Source of the DNA: Candidatus Omnitrophota bacterium
GTDB taxonomy: Bacteria; Omnitrophota; Gorgyraeia; Tantalellales; Tantalellaceae
Assembly: GCA_028717825.1 (NCBI GenBank)
Contig: JAQUNB010000018.1
Location: 1-10,758, forward strand
Direction of reading: 5' to 3'
DNA length: 10,758 nt
Part shown: positions 3,001 through 7,750 of the stretch, piece by piece
Layout: each line of letters opens with the position of its first letter
Numbering within the stretch: position 1 is the stretch's first letter
Notes under the pieces: generated by a model
Database searches by the model: none
What the model was told of the DNA's origin: nothing
The model's input: the letters and a program-made list of their open reading frames with translations, nothing else
Translations under genes and position numbers: made by a program

Positions 3001-3338
3001 TGCTCCGCGTGGAGTCCCTTTATCGTGATCTTTGCGACAAGTTTGTGTTTGATCAGAAGGGTAAATATTTCGGGAGTTATTGTAATAGCCCTTATACTGC
3101 CCGCCTTTAGCTGTGTGTCCGGATCGTAAAGGTCGATGTTCTCGAGGATAAAGGAGCAAAGCAGCTTATGCTTGAAAGATCCTATCTTTACTGAGCGATT
3201 GAATACCTCCGAGGTTTTAGTTTCAAGATATGTCTTTACCTTTTCAGCAAAAAACCCCTTGTGGTTCTCGTACCATATAATGGGGACTAGAAGCGAGAGT
3301 AAAAGCAACACTATTATTATTTTTAAGAATTTACGCAT
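1..3338 (-). CDS. AsmA/TamB-like envelope protein with 141-residue internal repeats (3' end outside window)
   Basis: The reading frame is open on the minus strand from an ATG at 3338 to the left edge, giving 1112 complete codons without a stop. The N-terminus is a basic start followed by one hydrophobic helix (about residues 3-22), so the protein is probably anchored in the inner membrane with the rest in the periplasm. The next segment (VKIGSFKHKLLCSFILENI, an amphipathic beta pattern) is typical of AsmA-like proteins. From about residue 344 the chain consists of repeats. Four copies of a 140-141-residue unit start at GKFHG (residues 481, 622, 763, 904). A shorter degenerate copy precedes them, and another begins at about residue 1044. 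Each unit carries MDSGxLFKNMLGxKNKI, then GPF, then GYGK. AsmA-like proteins such as TamB, YhdP and YdbH form long beta-grooves that move phospholipid to the outer membrane; the same role here is inferred. No Shine-Dalgarno precedes the start, and a promoter sits directly on the ATG. Confidence 0.88.
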   Translation of the reverse strand, partial: MRKFLKIIIVLLLLSLLVPIIWYENHKGFFAEKVKTYLETKTSEVFNRSVKIGSFKHKLLCSFILENIDLYDPDTQLKAGSIRAITITPEIFTLLIKHKLVAKITIKGLHAEHLTGDASLRIIFRKTGSWKETFDLARVENIKIVKGKLKWKEYKFKNISGDLKLHDSGISQGKLFFTCNSLKLALNFMKVPGRTADYRVILKSENFLLDGILLSGKNMLLVHRFRGTLFSVGMNLKGIIKNLNSDHNMTFELIGFISGDIKNLVTLIPNNEKLKNILNSSGWIRTGITVSVNESNPSGLTLIAGARSKSLNFNKIEVKDLSVNFSIKDKRIDMPRMDFYLFDSPTSVNFAMDMNDADLPMTFSIKTTDMKLDTALGGVIDQKKESFGPLDLEISFKGYGHDLADLPCIAQNKPFEFVDIIKQWNTIFTDKDRLQNMELNGAVKLKNLRLTTTRFDDIVSRFSLMNGKLIISPLTFGAFGGKFHGSAKVDLADEKLPFTLYTEINRMDSGTVFKNMLGPKNKIAGPFDLSLSSGGYGKTITEAVKNLKQTTGKRPLTPFDTVREVFILLVNENRIRDIDLETAMRLKDLCLEKTELENLSAKLSMNSGRLNISYLDFNSFGGKFHGSAEVNLASKRFPFSLNARIAQMDSGALFKNMLGQKNKIDGPFDFDLSLSGYGRKIADVFQNIERKHGRAPLTPLEKVWEGFILLANENRIQDIGLDAAMNFKNLELDKTKISNCSAKLSLKTGKLNVPYLDFNSFGGKFHGSGGINLADKRFPFSLNTQIEQMDSGSLFENMLGPKNKVTGPFNFSLSANGYGKTISDTVKSLKQKPHETPLTPLDIVRGSCAKLVNENHVQDINLNAAMNLKNLALDKTELGNCSTKFSVNAGKLNVSYLDFDSYGGKFHGEAEMNLASKRFPFSLNARIEQMDSGSLFKNMLGPKNKIKGPFKLDLAYSGYGKTLADLAEHLRKKNGIRTLTTPEKIHSTILFLSEEKEIKDQLLRADFSLKTIQVNKTGFDDIYGKTSLSDGRFAATLNGLFYNGRFSSSFFCDLDKKTFPFILNSEILDTDFGLLIKSTGDKNSPVFGKMNFDMHLQGSSIDQKSYTGSGKI
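210..1898 (-). repeat. Four tandem 423-bp in-frame repeats inside the AsmA-like gene
   Basis: The codons for GKFH recur with their low ends at 1887, 1464, 1041 and 618, which is exactly 423 bp each time. The fourth unit is one codon shorter and ends near 210. Stretches of the second and third copies are nearly identical in DNA: about 40 bp match without a difference around 1039-1078 and 1462-1501. The units share DFNSFGGKFHGSA, KRFPFSLN, QMDSGxLFKNMLG and LTP with little or no length change. Degenerate related units flank the array on both sides. Confidence 0.9.
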
Positions 3339-3374
3339 GCCAAAAAGTATATCACGAAGCGTAGCTTGATACAA
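3338..3374 (-). promoter_or_regulatory. Sigma70-type promoter of the AsmA-like gene, predicted leaderless
   Basis: Read on the minus strand, TTGTAT (3374-3369) and TATACT (3351-3346) are separated by 17 bases. The ATG begins 8 bases after the -10 box. A normal start site 6-8 bases downstream would put +1 at or within two bases of the A of the ATG. No Shine-Dalgarno-like sequence is present in the gap, so translation would be leaderless. Confidence 0.6.
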
Positions 3375-3440
3375 CCCGTGAAAAATAACAAGGTTTATAA
3401 CACAATCAAAAACAGTATCTATCAATATGAAGCAGGCCGG

Positions 3441-3487
3441 ATTACTTTCGTAACTTATTGTGAGTACTGAAGATATCGACAACGTCT
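3441..3487 (-). repeat. 47-bp dispersed element, copy A (upstream of the four-helix protein gene)
   Basis: Read on the minus strand it begins AGACGTTGTC, continues GATATCTTCA, and ends GTTAC-GAAA-GTAAT. The AGACGTTGTC end faces the downstream promoter; its last base at 3487 is followed by 13 bases and then TTGACA at 3501. It matches copy B at 36 of 47 positions (hand count) and shares 19 of its first 20 bases with copy D. It probably acts as an upstream protein-binding site at about -95 to -49. Confidence 0.8.
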
Positions 3488-3500
3488 CCGCTTGGGATTC

Positions 3501-3529
3501 TTGACATAGCTTTGTTTGTAGTGTAACCT
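3501..3529 (+). promoter_or_regulatory. Sigma70-type promoter of the four-helix membrane protein gene
   Basis: TTGACA (3501-3506) is followed by a 17-base spacer and TAACCT (3524-3529), placing +1 near 3536. The -35 box is a perfect consensus and the -10 is moderate. That gives a leader of about 43 bases containing the AGGGAG ribosome-binding site at 3567-3572. Element copy A lies immediately upstream. Confidence 0.6.
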
Positions 3530-3578
3530 TTTCGTGACAGAAAAATAATTGTGTATTTTTAACCCTAGGGAGAAGATC

Positions 3579-4073
3579 ATGAATAGGATACTTGAGCGGG
3601 TCAAAAAGGAAATACTCCACGTGTTACCCGTGGTTATCTATTTCTTTCTTGCCATTACCTTGTTCAGGTTTACATTCGGTCTATGGCTGGCCCATTTTGG
3701 AGTGCCGTCCACGTCTTTTGTGAGAGTTCTCATCCTTTCGCTGGTGATAGGGAAGATCATGTTGATCGTAGATCATCTGCCGTTCCTAAACATATTTCGA
3801 AAAAAACCGTTAATATACGGCATTCTATGGAAAACCTTGGTTTACACATTTTTTAGTTTTTTATTCCGTTTTGTTGAACACCTGATACCACTTGTCAGAC
3901 AATGCGGGAGCATTCAGGCTGGGTACCAACAACTATATGCTATAACGCTGTGGCCTCGCTTCTGGACAATCCAAGTCTGGTGTTTTATACTCTTTTTGGT
4001 TTTTGTAGTTAGCCAGCAGATCGTAGAGTATATCGGCAAAGAGCGTTTGCGTAAATTGTTCTTTGGCGTATAG
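3579..4073 (+). CDS. Four-helix integral membrane protein of unknown function
   Basis: The product is 164 residues. The ATG at 3579 is chosen over an in-frame TTG at 3549 because AGGGAG (3567-3572) lies six bases before it. Hydrophobic helices are visible at about residues 14-36, 46-66, 79-104 and 130-150. The N-terminus is basic (RILERVKK) and the C-terminus charged (IGKERLRK). Between helices 2 and 3 is a loop, VDHLPFLNIFRKKPLIY, followed by LWKTLVY; a similar pattern occurs in small conserved hypothetical membrane proteins of other bacteria, as far as I recall. No catalytic motif is evident. The gene stands alone, has its own promoter, and is bracketed by copies A and B of the 47-bp element, so it probably belongs to that regulatory set. 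Confidence 0.8.
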   Translation: MNRILERVKKEILHVLPVVIYFFLAITLFRFTFGLWLAHFGVPSTSFVRVLILSLVIGKIMLIVDHLPFLNIFRKKPLIYGILWKTLVYTFFSFLFRFVEHLIPLVRQCGSIQAGYQQLYAITLWPRFWTIQVWCFILFLVFVVSQQIVEYIGKERLRKLFFGV

Positions 4074-4083
4074 CCAAAAGCGC

Positions 4084-4130
4084 AGACGTTGTCTATAAAC
4101 TGTTTAATTATAATAAGTTACAAAAGTAAT
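4084..4130 (+). repeat. 47-bp dispersed element, copy B (orphan copy)
   Basis: It begins AGACGTTGTC and ends GTTAC-AAAA-GTAAT, with the same 47-base length as the other copies. It lies 10 bases past the stop of the four-helix protein gene. Unlike the other copies, no promoter can be seen at the expected distance from its AGACGTTGTC end, which would read leftward into that gene. It may be a remote site, a vestige, or something other than a promoter site. Confidence 0.75.
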
Positions 4131-4354
4131 TCCACCTCCAATTCTGCAGGGTCTATTTTCATAGCCGGTCACTATTTGTTTACGTATTTCCATAACTATG
4201 AACATAAAATTTCAAAATTGCCTTTTAATGTAAAAATTTATGTATAAAAGCACATTTAGGCAAGGTATGCCGTGATGCGAAAGTTCTTAACAGTATGTAA
4301 ATAAAGGAGTTATATATTATAAAAATATTTAATTGACTTTTCTCGCCAAAAATT

Positions 4355-4383
4355 TTGCATAAAAGCAATTTATATGATATACT
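4355..4383 (+). promoter_or_regulatory. Sigma70-type promoter of the first receiver gene
   Basis: TTGCAT (4355-4360), a 17-base spacer and TATACT (4378-4383) predict a start near 4390, about 60 bases before the ATG at 4451. An alternative -35, TTGACT at 4333-4338, has no good -10 partner at 16-18 bases. Confidence 0.5.
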
Positions 4384-4450
4384 TGTAGTGTAAATAGAAA
4401 AGAAAGCAAGAAAAAACGTACCAAATATACATGGAAAAGGAGGTGAAGCC

Positions 4451-4828
4451 ATGAATGGGAAATATAGAATTCTTATTGTAGATGACGAGGAAAAAATTTG
4501 CAAATTGATAGAGAAATTTTTGTTAAAAAACGGGTTCGATGTATTGATCGCCTGTAGCGGGGAAGACGCCTTGAACGTTATTGAAAAGGAAGAATTCGAC
4601 TTGATGATACTCGATAAACGGATGCCCGGCATTAATGGAGTGGGAGTATTAAGGGAGTTATTATATCGAGGGATGGCTTTGCCTGTAATCGTTCTGTCGG
4701 GCGTGCAGGATTTGCATGGGAATATTGATGAGATCAAGGCGATGGGCTATTCCGATATACTGGTCAAGCCGGTCGAATTATTCTTTTTGCTGGAATGTAT
4801 CAACAAAAAACTAAACAGGAACGAATAG
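4451..4828 (+). CDS. Stand-alone response regulator receiver (REC) protein 1
   Basis: The 125-residue product is one complete CheY-like receiver with no output domain. The acidic pocket is D11-D12, the phosphoacceptor is D55 in LMILDKRMPG, the conserved hydroxyl is S83 in VIVLSG, and the conserved lysine is K106 in VKP. All key residues are present, so it should be phosphorylatable. The start is fixed by a very strong AGGAGGTGA at 4438-4446. It has its own promoter, and 94 bases including a second promoter separate it from the next receiver gene. No histidine kinase is encoded in the window, so its partner is unknown. Single-domain receivers usually act by protein-protein contact or in phosphorelays; which applies here cannot be seen. 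Confidence 0.93.
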   Translation: MNGKYRILIVDDEEKICKLIEKFLLKNGFDVLIACSGEDALNVIEKEEFDLMILDKRMPGINGVGVLRELLYRGMALPVIVLSGVQDLHGNIDEIKAMGYSDILVKPVELFFLLECINKKLNRNE

Positions 4829-4843
4829 TTAAAACAAGGAAAT

Positions 4844-4871
4844 TTGACTATACTGTTTTCCCAAGTATAAT
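4844..4871 (+). promoter_or_regulatory. Sigma70-type promoter of the second and third receiver genes
   Basis: TTGACT (4844-4849), a 16-base spacer and a perfect TATAAT (4866-4871) predict a start near 4878, about 45 bases before the ATG at 4923. It lies wholly in the spacer after the first receiver gene, so genes two and three can be expressed independently of gene one. Confidence 0.65.
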
Positions 4872-4922
4872 TTTATCATATGCTAAGATGCTTTTCATAT
4901 ATGGCTTTAGGACGGAGAAAAA

Positions 4923-5303
4923 ATGATTAGAGTACTTGTGGTCGACGACGAGAGAGGGGTAACAGATCTGATCACTTCTTTTTTAAGGGACAGGGACTTT
5001 GCCGTGGACGGTGTTTATGGCGGGATAGAAGCTCTTGGTGTGATGAGGGAAAAAAAAGCGGATATAATTTTTCTTGATCTACTAATGAAGGGTGTCGGCG
5101 GCCTTGAGACGTTGACTAAGATCAAGGAGATCTCTGCGAAAGCCAAAGTTGTCATTGTTTCCGCGACCGATGACCGCGTGGTAATTGAAAGGGTGATAGC
5201 GCTCGGCGCGGATGCGTTTATCCCAAAGCCGTTTAGCCTTGGGGATATAAATAAAGTGCTCACGGAAAAAATCCAAGAAGTTTTAAGCGAAAGGCATATA
5301 TGA
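4923..5303 (+). CDS. Stand-alone response regulator receiver (REC) protein 2
   Basis: The product is 126 residues and consists of one receiver domain. D8-D9 form the acidic pocket, D52 (IIFLD) is the phosphoacceptor, S80 (VIVSA) the conserved hydroxyl, and K102 (IPKP) the conserved lysine. The usual MPG after the phosphoacceptor is MKG here, a mild divergence. GGAG at 4914-4917 supports the ATG at 4923. The stop overlaps the next start in an ATGA arrangement, so this and the third receiver are co-transcribed and translationally coupled. The C-terminal tail after the last helix is short and shows no DNA-binding or enzymatic domain. Confidence 0.92.
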   Translation: MIRVLVVDDERGVTDLITSFLRDRDFAVDGVYGGIEALGVMREKKADIIFLDLLMKGVGGLETLTKIKEISAKAKVVIVSATDDRVVIERVIALGADAFIPKPFSLGDINKVLTEKIQEVLSERHI

Positions 5304-5692
5304 AACGGCCCGTGATCTTGATAGTTGATGATGAATCCGACATAAGACAGACCCTCGTAAATTTTTTAAACGACAGGTTTGATTGCGTACTTAAAGAAGC
5401 CGAGAACGGGGAGGAAGCATTAAAGTTTGTTCGCGAAAATATATGCGATGTTATGATCCTCGATATAAAAATGCCTAAAAGAAATGGTTTAAGTGTGATG
5501 AAAGAGGCAAAAAAACTCGGCAGAGCTATCGATATAATAATCATTTCAGCGTGGGAAAGTGATGATGTTGCTAGGGAAGCCTTGGACTTTGGAGCGACAG
5601 ACTATGTAATAAAACCGCTTGATCTGAAAGCGGTAAATTTGAAGTTATCGAATATCTTGGAAAAACGGAACCAGAGGATCAGTAAGATTTAG
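5300..5692 (+). CDS. Stand-alone response regulator receiver (REC) protein 3
   Basis: The product is 130 residues with a single receiver domain. D10-D11 form the acidic pocket, D55 in VMILDIKMP is the phosphoacceptor, S83 in IIIISA the hydroxyl, and K105 in VIKP the lysine. The ATG lies inside the last codons of receiver 2 (4-bp overlap), and AAAGG just upstream can serve as ribosome-binding site. A short basic tail (EKRNQRISKI) follows the domain. The 3' end overlaps the 3' end of the opposing XRE-cupin gene by 14 bases, with no terminator between them. The differences among the three receivers suggest distinct partners rather than recent duplicates. Confidence 0.92.
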   Translation: MKRPVILIVDDESDIRQTLVNFLNDRFDCVLKEAENGEEALKFVRENICDVMILDIKMPKRNGLSVMKEAKKLGRAIDIIIISAWESDDVAREALDFGATDYVIKPLDLKAVNLKLSNILEKRNQRISKI

Positions 5693-6275
5693 GATTTTGA
5701 ATAATGATACAGCGTGCCCTGACCTTTTTTGAGGGGTTTTCGAAATGATGCGGGATATTGCTGGCGAATGACAGTGTATCCCCTTTTTTTATCAGATGTT
5801 TTTCCTCTCCTATGTAGGCGGTAATCTCCCCCTGAAGCATAATAATAAGTTTTTCGAATTTTTCTGTATCTAGAGGGTCTTCTTCTTTCTTTGTCGAGCC
5901 TCCGGGGGAGATAATAAGCTCCATTGCGAGTAATTTCAGGGTTCGCGGGCTTAGTATCTCAGCTATGGCTTTTTCGTTATAAATGTATTTATTTTCGTCT
6001 CTTTCGTTGCTTCTGATGATCGTTACAATAGAGGATTCCTCTTCTTCGGTCCCTTCCTTGAGGGATCGGAGCGAGATGCCCAAACCGGTGCATATTTGAT
6101 ACAGACTTTTTATCCTTAAAGATCCGCGATGTCCCTTTTCAATGCGGCAGAGGCTGTAGTAGGTTAAAGCGCTATCTCCGAAAATCTGCTTTAGTTTAGC
6201 GTGAAATTCTTTTAAACTGAGCTTTAATGTGTCCGTTCGTATTTGCTTTATCTTTTCATAAATTTTCATAGTCAT
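5679..6275 (-). CDS. XRE-family HTH regulator with C-terminal cupin domain
   Basis: The product is about 198 residues from the ATG at 6275; a GTG at 6278 and an ATG at 6269 are also possible. The first 70 residues form an XRE-type helix-turn-helix domain (YYSLCRIEKGHRGS is the recognition region). A charged linker (KEGTEEEESS) follows, then a C-terminal cupin barrel containing IISPGGS, LQGEI and KKGDTLSFASNIPHHFENPS. The histidines expected in cupin motif 1 are absent (KKEED in their place), so a ligand-sensing rather than metal-enzyme role is likely, as in PuuR/SinR-like HTH-cupin regulators. The ligand is unknown. The gene is divergent from the 6519-7534 operon, and two back-to-back copies of the 47-bp element lie between the two promoters, making this protein the best local candidate to bind them. 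Confidence 0.88.
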   Translation of the reverse strand: MTMKIYEKIKQIRTDTLKLSLKEFHAKLKQIFGDSALTYYSLCRIEKGHRGSLRIKSLYQICTGLGISLRSLKEGTEEEESSIVTIIRSNERDENKYIYNEKAIAEILSPRTLKLLAMELIISPGGSTKKEEDPLDTEKFEKLIIMLQGEITAYIGEEKHLIKKGDTLSFASNIPHHFENPSKKVRARCIIIQNPKSY

Positions 6276-6287
6276 CACTGCTACGTT

Positions 6288-6316
6288 AGTTTACTTCGCT
6301 ACTCCTAAAAAGTCAA
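6288..6316 (-). promoter_or_regulatory. Sigma70-type promoter of the XRE-cupin gene, near-leaderless
   Basis: Read on the minus strand, TTGACT (6316-6311), a 17-base spacer and TAAACT (6293-6288) predict a start near 6281. The possible start codons at 6278 (GTG), 6275 (ATG) and 6269 (ATG) would leave a leader of only about 3-12 bases with no Shine-Dalgarno. CTGCTAC (about 6278-6284) and GTAGCAG (6323-6329) form an inverted repeat around the promoter and could be an extra operator. Confidence 0.55.
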
Positions 6317-6327
6317 TAAAATGTAGC

Positions 6328-6374
6328 AGACGTTGTCGCTAACCTTACTAGTTATAATGAGTTACGAGGGTAAC
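6328..6374 (+). repeat. 47-bp dispersed element, copy C (upstream of the XRE-cupin gene)
   Basis: It starts AGACGTTGTC and ends with the perfect dyad GTTAC-GAGG-GTAAC (6361-6374). The AGACGTTGTC end faces the leftward promoter of the XRE-cupin gene; 11 bases separate it from TTGACT, so the element covers about -93 to -47. With copy D it forms an inverted pair covering 6328-6443, with 22 bases between the inner ends. Confidence 0.8.
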
Positions 6375-6396
6375 CCGACTTTAGAACTATAATAGG

Positions 6397-6443
6397 ATTA
6401 CATTTGTAAGCTGTTGTAAATGTTGAAGATATCGACAACATCT
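6397..6443 (-). repeat. 47-bp dispersed element, copy D (upstream of the peptide/TPR operon)
   Basis: Read on the minus strand it starts AGATGTTGTC, continues GATATCTTCA, and ends CTTAC-AAAT-GTAAT. It shares 19 of the first 20 bases with copy A. Its outer end at 6443 is followed by 14 bases and then the -35 box at 6458, nearly the same geometry as copy A with its promoter. Confidence 0.8.
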
Positions 6444-6457
6444 TAAAAATGGTACAT

Positions 6458-6486
6458 TTGCCAATCTGTGTGTTCTCGGGTATGCT
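6458..6486 (+). promoter_or_regulatory. Sigma70-type promoter of the 59-residue peptide/TPR operon
   Basis: TTGCCA (6458-6463), a 17-base spacer and TATGCT (6481-6486) predict a start near 6493. The transcript would carry GGGAG at 6501-6505 and the ATG at 6519. This predicted start rules out the longer open frame beginning at 6468. Confidence 0.55.
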
Positions 6487-6518
6487 TTGGTTTATATAAA
6501 GGGAGAAGTCGGGTTATA

Positions 6519-6698
6519 ATGATCAGGGGGCTGACAAAATATCTTATATTTAAGGTTATTCTACGTTCTTTCGCGACGGGATGTGTTATTCTTGGGTGGC
6601 TTTTGCGCGACAACGCCGTGACAGACTGCTCCTTTTTGTGGAACAATATTTCTTTTTGGGGCGGGATCATACTCACAGTTATTAGTTTTTTTCTTTAA
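6519..6698 (+). CDS. Small membrane protein (59 residues), unknown function
   Basis: The ATG at 6519 follows a predicted promoter, and GGGAGAAG at 6501-6508 is a distant but usable ribosome-binding site. The peptide is largely hydrophobic. One helix covers about residues 9-29 (LIFKVILRSFATGCVILGWLL as two blocks), a short polar loop RDNAVTDCS follows, and a second helix (about 43-59) ends at the C-terminus ISFFL. I recognise no family. It sits 23 bases before the secreted TPR gene and is probably co-transcribed with it. Because it is short and lacks a homologue I can name, the call rests on context and composition. Confidence 0.55.
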   Translation: MIRGLTKYLIFKVILRSFATGCVILGWLLRDNAVTDCSFLWNNISFWGGIILTVISFFL

Positions 6699-6721
6699 AT
6701 GAACGAATTGGAGAGGGCGTT

Positions 6722-7534
6722 ATGAAAGAGAAATTAAAATTGATCGGTTTTTTACTGATCCTTGCCATGTTGCTGCCAGCAGGGCTTGTTCGGGCCGGGG
6801 CAGAAGATCTCGAGGGGACGATCAAACAGTATATCTCGGAGCTTAAAGAAAATCCGGGTAACGATGTGATAAGGGAAAAAATTATCAGGCTCGCACGGAC
6901 ATTGACGCCTGCGCCGATCATCCCGGAAGAAGCGCGTGAACATTTTATAATGGCGGAGGGCTTACAGCGAAGTGCGAAAGGCAGGGAATCTTACCAAGTG
7001 GCCATTAACGAATATAAGGCGGCTTTACTTATAGCTCCGTGGTGGCAGGAAGCGTATAGAAAGCTCGGGAAACTTCAGAAGTTGACCGGCGAGTATAATG
7101 AAGCGATAAGGACGTTCAACCTTTATTTGCTTACGAACCCTGATGACGCGAAGGCTGTACAGAAAGAGATCCATGATCTAAAAGCAGCGGGTACGATAAA
7201 TAGGTCTAAAATCAAAACAAGGTCCGGTGTGCCAAAATTCGAAGGACACTGGTATATGATCGCGCCGCAGGGCGGGAGCCTGATAAAAGATTATATTGTC
7301 ATCGGTCGCACCGACGGAGGAGAACTATTCGCCGATAGGTCGGATCATATCGGGGAAGTTTTTTATCTTGAGATAGAAGCGAGGCGGATAATGGTATATT
7401 CTAAATCCGATGAGTATTCCTACAAACTTGATCTTACATTGTCAAAAGATGATAATAAAATGGAAGGAAAACTTCAGCGGACGCTTCCGGAAGAAGCTCC
7501 CGAAACTTTTCCGATAACGCTGTATAGGCAGTGA
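6722..7534 (+). CDS. Secreted TPR-containing protein with C-terminal beta-rich domain
   Basis: The 270-residue product begins with a clear signal peptide (basic MKEKLK, hydrophobic core, likely cleavage after VRA at residue 25), so it should be periplasmic or otherwise exported. No lipobox cysteine is present. Residues 91-154 form about two tetratricopeptide motifs (YQVAINEYKAALLIAPWWQE, then LTGEYNEAIRTFNLYLLTNP), a helical surface for protein binding. Residues 172-270 alternate polar and hydrophobic and begin FEGHWYMI, suggesting a small beta-barrel or lipocalin-like module; I do not recognise the family. GGAGAGG at 6710-6716 supports the start. It is the second gene of the operon opposite the XRE-cupin regulator, so that regulator may control its amount. 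Confidence 0.82.
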   Translation: MKEKLKLIGFLLILAMLLPAGLVRAGAEDLEGTIKQYISELKENPGNDVIREKIIRLARTLTPAPIIPEEAREHFIMAEGLQRSAKGRESYQVAINEYKAALLIAPWWQEAYRKLGKLQKLTGEYNEAIRTFNLYLLTNPDDAKAVQKEIHDLKAAGTINRSKIKTRSGVPKFEGHWYMIAPQGGSLIKDYIVIGRTDGGELFADRSDHIGEVFYLEIEARRIMVYSKSDEYSYKLDLTLSKDDNKMEGKLQRTLPEEAPETFPITLYRQ

Positions 7535-7560
7535 GTTGAGCGTGGGAAAATAACTGGTTT

Positions 7561-7588
7561 AGTATGTAGTATGTGGTATGTAGTACCG
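7561..7588. repeat. Degenerate 7-bp tandem array 1
   Basis: Four consecutive heptamers AGTATGT, AGTATGT, GGTATGT, AGTACCG. It is the first of four arrays with the same period in this spacer. Confidence 0.75.
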
Positions 7589-7601
7589 GGAACGACCCGG
7601 T
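7585..7601. other. Small perfect hairpin between heptamer arrays
   Basis: ACCGGG (7585-7590), loop AACGA, CCCGGT (7596-7601) form a six-pair GC-rich stem. Only TTT follows, so it is at most a weak terminator for the operon ending at 7534. Confidence 0.4.
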
Positions 7602-7610
7602 TTAAGAACT

Positions 7611-7645
7611 GTATATCGTATTTCGTATATTGTATATCGTGCCGG
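7611..7645. repeat. Degenerate 7-bp tandem array 2
   Basis: Five consecutive heptamers GTATATC, GTATTTC, GTATATT, GTATATC, GTGCCGG. The unit sequence differs from array 1 but the period is the same. Confidence 0.75.
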
Positions 7646-7660
7646 CGGAAACGAACGTCT

Positions 7661-7695
7661 GGCAGATGGCATTTAGCATACGGCAGTTGACGTAT
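7661..7695. repeat. Degenerate 7-bp tandem array 3
   Basis: Heptamers GGCAGAT, GGCATTT, AGCATAC, GGCAGTT, GACGTAT. This is the least regular of the four arrays. Confidence 0.55.
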
Positions 7696-7715
7696 GCGAA
7701 GACAAACGGCGACAT

Positions 7716-7750
7716 CATATGCCAAATGCTATATGCCATATGCAAAGTGT
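7716..7750. repeat. Degenerate 7-bp tandem array 4
   Basis: Heptamers CATATGC, CAAATGC, TATATGC, CATATGC, AAAGTGT. It ends 30 bases before the lipase start codon and lies inside the spurious upstream extension of that reading frame. Confidence 0.75.

Follow-up and report, generated by a model that had tools for sequence, protein, structure and literature searches.

Several kinds of dispersed sequence described in bacteria invite comparison with the element that is the subject of this paper, a two-part arm of 47 bp that occurs four times in a stretch of 10,758 nucleotides from an uncultured Candidatus Omnitrophota bacterium (assembly GCA_028717825.1; the stretch is the whole of contig JAQUNB010000018.1, here C18, and is called the window). 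According to two sources, repetitive extragenic palindromic (REP) sequences between co-oriented genes are found close to the 3' end of the gene that precedes them, with a variable distance to the one that follows, are often inverted doublets, most dimers having spacers of 20–100 bp, and have an end that can supply a stop codon (PMC3733652); REP singlets are reported to be decayed relative to doublets (PMC3116915). The first source also describes the TIRYT families, with long terminal inverted repeats (TIRs), as long inverted units, some of them partly self-complementary, with many dimers or clusters and a moderate copy number, and miniature inverted-repeat transposable elements (MITEs) as sequences of 70–300 bp with TIRs of 15–30 bp and no coding capacity (PMC3733652).

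The Omnitrophota element shares with REPs, bacterial interspersed mosaic elements (BIMEs) and REP sequences forming hairpins (REPINs) an intergenic position, inverted doublets and closeness to upstream 3' ends. It departs from them in several respects: its arms measure 47 bp, whereas REPs measure 20–40 bp; it has no GTAG or CGTC tag beside a stem, and its outer end, AGACGTTGTC, has no adjacent long stem; 12 copies of it were found instead of many; and no REP-associated tyrosine transposase (RAYT) was found. Unlike those of REPINs, its single arms, of which there are only four, are not decayed (mean identity 0.745, vs 0.678 for paired arms). With TIRYT repeats it has in common the long inverted-repeat units and their pairing, but those repeats are defined by a flanking tyrosine transposase gene, and none was found here. 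Because the tag, the size, the decay of singlets and the transposase do not agree, the element is not filed here as a REP, REPIN or TIRYT repeat. Its pairs, which are 115–125 bp long, end in inverted arms and contain no long open frame, also recall MITEs such as NEMIS, ERIC and YPAL, from which they differ in that the arms fill most of the element, the spacers look unrelated and single arms do not fit; moreover, the target-site duplication that is expected of MITEs, though not universal, was not seen at any of the five two-ended copies. Finally, a neighbouring gene encodes an XRE-cupin protein of the PuuR type (cupin by Pfam; 22.3 bits with the PuuR model), but this score is far below the PuuR cut-off of 211 and the closest relatives of the protein lack the site. 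A two-part site of 47 bp is long for a regulator of this type.

On balance, we read the element as a lineage-specific, low-copy dispersed inverted repeat of the REP or MITE kind, with constrained arm ends. In this uncultured bacterium, the arms resemble a repeat spread by copying more than they do a gene-control switch. An earlier sequence-only reading of the window, in which the four copies were the sites of a new regulon, is partly supported, as the constrained, nearly length-invariant, two-part, intergenic unit stands. If true, the repeat interpretation brings to light, in an uncultured lineage, a small family of inverted repeats whose two-part arms are unusually long and which has no known mobiliser, and it carries the caution that promoter-adjacent dyads in one window can be repeat arms.

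The 47-bp Arms and Their Distribution in the Genome

The four copies lie at the positions and on the strands first given for them, and their 47 columns align gap-free. Arm A (3441..3487, minus strand) is single and stands between an AsmA-like gene, whose start is taken at 3338, and the gene for a small membrane protein, toward which its AGAC end points; with 46.5 bits it scores best of the 12 arms of the genome. Arm B (4084..4130, plus strand; 42.7 bits), also single, begins 10 nt past the membrane-protein stop codon. Arms C (6328..6374, plus strand; 44.2 bits) and D (6397..6443, minus strand; 41.5 bits) had been counted as separate elements; their positions are right, but they are the left and right arms of one inverted repeat of 116 bp (6328..6443), with the AGAC ends outward and 22 bp between the arms, a layout that recurs in the pairs of contigs C44, C77 and C196.

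Invariance among the four is as high as had been reported, the computed figure being 26 of the 47 columns and not 25. Of its 47 positions, arm A shares 36 with B, 35 with C and 37 with D, far above the best match to it in 100 dinucleotide-shuffled windows (28 of 47). Each arm joins the conserved outer decamer AGACGTTGTC to a conserved inner dyad, TTAC-N4-GTAA, and the two dyads had been ascribed to every copy: the inner one is indeed perfect in all four, while the outer one, GAC-GTT-GTC, is perfect in A, B and C and imperfect in D, which reads GAT-GTT-GTC. Their centres are 34.5 bp apart, in agreement with the earlier value of about 35.

Searches of the genome (1.44 Mb in 261 contigs, 75.8% complete) show that the window holds part of a larger family. 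A strict 46-letter pattern, allowed up to 3 mismatches over the whole genome, gave eight matches, vs none for the reversed control. A sequence-only profile built from these eight sites, with 150 of 314 first-look candidates scored, returned 16 matches at expectation values (E) up to 10, namely 12 full arms (E up to 0.004) and four partial ones. A second profile built from the 12 arms recovered the same 12, from 46.5 down to 30.5 bits, the next match falling to 15.2 bits; as 150 of its 1571 candidates were scored, weaker copies may be missed. Partial matches, four with the first profile and six with the second, were not counted as copies. The outer half site without mismatch has 12 matches in the genome, 11 of them inside full arms, and the inner half site 11, with seven inside full arms and three for the reversed control; when one mismatch is allowed, the matches of the outer half site rise to 68, vs 27 for that control.

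The 12 full arms make up eight loci on six contigs. Besides A, B and the C-D pair on C18, these are inverted pairs on C44 (6529+/6607-), C77 (632+/700-) and C196 (626+/692-), and single arms on C135 (2385+) and C180 (2732+). Eleven arms are gapless over the 47 columns, and the right arm of the C196 pair carries two extra bases. The C135 copy belongs to a 61-bp element with the inverted ends AGACGTTG and CAACGTCT, the latter at the far end.

Placement between Genes

Every one of the four pairs has its AGAC ends on the outside and its GTAA ends turned inward toward one another, across gaps of 22 (C-D), 31 (C44), 21 (C77) and 19 bp (C196), which gives total lengths of 116, 125, 115 and 115 bp. 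The scattering of genome matches inside genes, which had been named as telling against a regulon, was not found: judged by long open frames, all eight loci are intergenic and no arm lies within a long gene. This judgement takes the long genes as real, and short open frames of 52–69 codons overlap several copies; likewise, the AsmA-like frame is open across arm A unless its start is at 3338, as taken here.

The pairs on C44, C77 and C196 stand between co-oriented genes, and their left arms begin 5 nt after the upstream stop codon, overlap its last base (-1 nt) and begin 3 nt after it, respectively. With arm B added, a stop codon lies no more than 10 nt away at four of the six loci flanked by co-oriented genes; at the remaining two it lies 304 nt away. 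Because REPs are reported near upstream 3' ends, at variable distance from the downstream gene and as inverted dimers, such placement fits a repeat better than an operator. The two distances of 304 nt (L011 2080-2385 and L055 2778-3083) are probably a coincidence.

Signs of Probable Copying and a Putative Mobiliser

The ends of the arms (columns 1–14 and 35–47) hold 1.63 bits per column vs 0.84 in the middle, a difference matched in none of 20,000 random column splits, with the boundaries set after the alignment had been viewed. Since the ends are conserved more than the middle, the pattern suggests that something, in the simplest case a protein, recognises both of them. Nor is the middle random: its columns have a mean identity of 0.494 vs 0.320 under a composition null, a value reached by none of 5000 shuffles, and their variation is linked between columns (6 of 5000 shuffles, or 22 of 5000 without arm C196m), as seen in the block GATATCWT common to A, D, the right arm of C77, C135 and C180. 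These linked blocks suggest subfamilies of the sort left by copying, and to that extent they speak against an independent origin of the sites.

The following mechanism would account for these features. A DNA-binding protein, most simply a transposase now lost or unassembled, would have recognised both arm ends, and the arms, either alone or in inverted pairs of about 115 bp that face outward, would have spread by copying. Insertions that spared genes would have survived, between co-oriented genes mostly right behind a stop codon, and the surviving copies may incidentally influence the ends of mRNAs or promoters nearby.

A number of observations weigh against a copied repeat. Twelve copies are few; the single arms are conserved like the paired ones, as given above; the two arms of a pair are no closer to each other than to the arms of other pairs; and the spacers between paired arms look unrelated by eye. 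At two of the eight loci, A and C-D, the flanking genes are divergent, and the single arms of C135 and C180 are both 304 nt from the nearest upstream stop. No target-site duplication was found at the five two-ended elements, i.e., the four pairs and the 61-bp element of C135, whose flanks were compared by eye, and a search limited to transposases of the Y1 type (PF01797) gave no match in the 75.8%-complete genome, vs matches in 15 of the 18 other genomes of the family. In addition, the linked blocks of the middle could represent two classes of binding site.

A more specific proposal, that the arms are the terminal inverted repeats of one insertion sequence whose transposase gene sits in the unassembled part of the genome, appears very improbable. 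It would suit the TIR-like two-part ends, the 61-bp C135 derivative that keeps AGACGTTG and CAACGTCT, and the incompleteness of the genome (75.8%), but no other copy was found to flank a longer element in the assembled genome, no full arm was found in the sample of the class, no target-site duplication was seen, and an AGAY prefix is found in none of the 94 and 27 stretches that fit a looser pattern in genome and viral contigs.

Distance to Promoters and the Case for an Operator

The chief rival of the copied repeat, possible if doubtful, is that the arms are operators at several genes or operons, with a lineage-specific regulator, the XRE-cupin product or another candidate protein, binding the dyads 34.5 bp apart. 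If true, it would offer a route for a dispersed repeat to found a regulon. Strong constraint at both ends of an arm next to a variable middle, single arms included, is in its favour, and it was the distances to promoters within the window that gave rise to it. These were given correctly: 17-spaced promoter-like pairs stand 13 bp from arm A (TTGACA-17-TAACCT, 3501..3529, plus strand), 11 bp from arm C (TTGACT-17-TAAACT, 6288..6316, minus strand) and 14 bp from arm D (TTGCCA-17-TATGCT, 6458..6486, plus strand). For arm D, a rival pair at 47 bp, which overlaps the start codon, scores higher (11.7 vs 10.4). The short distance at arm C is forced, because only 52–58 bp separate this arm from the start codon, vs 75 bp for D and 91 bp for A.

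The 47-column profile scan that had been proposed brought further copies to light, but found the spacing of 11–14 bp in the window only. Measured from their AGAC ends, the seven gene-facing full arms stand at 13 (A), 11 (C), 14 (D), 34 (C44), 40 (C196), 61 (C180) and 103 bp (C77) from a promoter-like pair, and a fixed promoter geometry is not supported; since the other gene-facing arms are at 34, 40, 61 and 103 bp, the geometry first observed is local to the window. No helical phasing appears either, the remainders of the distances at 10.5 bp per turn running from 0.5 to 8.5. It still counts for an operator that each of the seven has a promoter-like pair within 103 bp and that three of them fall at 11–14 bp, where the chance that a pair scoring at least 10 starts within any one 4-nt window is about 1%, an estimate from 11 intergenic stretches that include the sites themselves, with a threshold set after the sites had been seen. 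The lengths of the pairs (115, 115, 116 and 125 bp) also differ by about one helical turn, for n = 4. Against it, arms that face away from gene starts likewise have pairs scoring at least 10 nearby (B at 28 bp, the left arm of C44 at 16 bp with a score of 10.1, and C135 at 228 bp), while the C135 element, whose short right-hand end faces a gene as well, has no pair above a score of 4.5 within 260 nt of that end. The four arms that sit right at an upstream stop codon, and the subfamily structure of the variable middle, are also at odds with operators.

It is unlikely that both views hold in succession, with two-dyad 47-bp recognition sites seeded by the repeat now serving the host as a lineage-specific control network near the promoters of a few very large proteins, of a nucleoside-diphosphate kinase and of the XRE-cupin locus.

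Folding as RNA

Quite unlikely, in our estimate, is a third view, in which the main role of the inverted pairs is at the RNA level: a long hairpin past the stop codon would end or protect the upstream transcript. The placement of three pairs and of arm B at stop codons would agree with it, as would the folding of all four pairs, which on either strand is better than that of shuffled sequence (z from -1.9 to -9.7), and the C196 pair, read by eye as a hairpin with a T-run after it. Any inverted repeat, however, is expected to fold on both strands, and the C-D pair and arm A lie upstream of divergent genes. The arms within a pair match no better than arms of other pairs: when arms were swapped, the observed pair identity was reached in 18 of 24 permutations and the observed RNA pairing in 16. 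Counting of base pairs in the inner dyad turned up no double-sided change, and a hairpin kept by compensation was set aside, as neither these counts nor the arm swapping support it. Terminator scans of 3340–6800 in the window, of L056 and of L010 1-1500, limited to loops of 3–8 and leaving C44 outside, listed none inside an arm or pair, and Rfam gave no match above the gathering score in the window.

Two hairpins were noticed by eye around the C135 element: a strong one at L011 2348-2384 (CCCGTTGG...CCAACGGG), which abuts the outer end of the copy, and a second, terminator-like one after the element.

Relatives and Conservation

Conservation in relatives, which a regulon would lead one to look for, was not seen, whether at the thioesterase loci described below or among full copies in the class. 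The strict pattern is present in none of 98 other genomes, and the profile gave only weak partial matches in the 18 other genomes of the family; those in 16 of the 18 (E 0.01–0.5) were dropped as noise, one of them, in G002, lying in an unrelated repeat. A coarse profile search of 383 other genomes of the class, with stricter filters and 15 candidates scored per genome, which recovered 11 of the 12 arms of the bacterium itself, returned no full copy. The matches in G353 and G219 (E 2.9e-4 and 3.8e-4) cover model positions 10–47 and 6–41 only, without the outer decamer, and were also taken as noise.

The XRE-cupin protein, proposed earlier as the binder of arms C and D, has 17 matches in 13 other genomes of the family. 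The four closest, in G002, G012, G017 and G018 (58% identity for G002, and 39%, 43% and 38% for the others), were followed up among the 17, and the element is absent both upstream of their genes and in the loci fetched around them; this stands against the operator and lowered the protein as cognate regulator. Single consensus 8-mers found upstream in G012 (ACGTTGTC and TATCTTCA) and in G018 are taken as chance. As the presumed recognition region differs (by eye, 16 of 23 residues are shared with the G002 protein and fewer with the others), the binding site may have changed in the relatives.

The thioesterase gene abutted by the C77 pair has a close match in 15 other genomes of the family, and no copy occurs in the locus of the closest match in any of the 15, a comparison that uses one match per genome and leaves out a second, weak one in G003 (27% identity). 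The fetched loci of relatives do not keep the gene order of the window as far as tested, and so they offered no exact empty site for comparison.

An origin from a phage or plasmid was dropped, the C-D pair having no match at E 0.01 in either collection searched. The looser pattern matched 27 stretches in viral contigs and 94 in genome contigs, none of the 27 or the 94 with an AGAY prefix, and the genome-contig matches are spread over many phyla (from the titles of 80 of the 94). A description of the element was not found in literature on the decamer, on Omnitrophota repeats and giant genes, or on XRE-cupin footprints, judged on titles.

Neighbouring Genes and Other Repeats

The small membrane protein downstream of arm A (3579..4073, plus strand; 164 aa) has no Pfam match and one named relative, from Candidatus Omnitrophota. 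The gene for the XRE-cupin-type regulator (5679..6275, minus strand) owes its cupin domain to Pfam, and its helix-turn-helix is predicted from the sequence together with the weak PuuR-model match; downstream of arm D lies a gene for a 59-residue peptide (6519..6698, plus strand). Elsewhere in the genome, several copies are found beside very large proteins without a Pfam match, at L010 955-6180 (1742+ aa), L009 29-6523 (2164 aa) and L055 1-2205 (735+ aa). Proteins of this size are in keeping with Omnitrophota.

Between 4451 and 6278, stand-alone receiver genes of the CheY-like type are arranged tail to tail with the XRE-cupin gene. The same convergent arrangement recurs in L173, L174 and L175, from other genomes of the family, and not in L172, which makes it a partly conserved neighbourhood. 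Upstream of the first receiver gene there is a 49-bp direct repeat (4204-4252 and 4319-4367; 71% identity).

The AsmA-like gene (387-1955) contains four internal repeats of 300 bp at an exact spacing of 423 bp, with 63–72% identity to the first, which on sequence evidence is a series of four 141-residue modules. Degenerate intergenic tracts of the ATGGCATTTAGCATA / GTATGTAGTA kind, seen by eye at 7556-7745 and at L011 2100-2330, belong to a different dispersed repeat. Lastly, a palindromic pair of the CGTCATTGCGAG type occurs in G002 (L172 15601-15800), which we take to resemble a CGTC-tagged REP.

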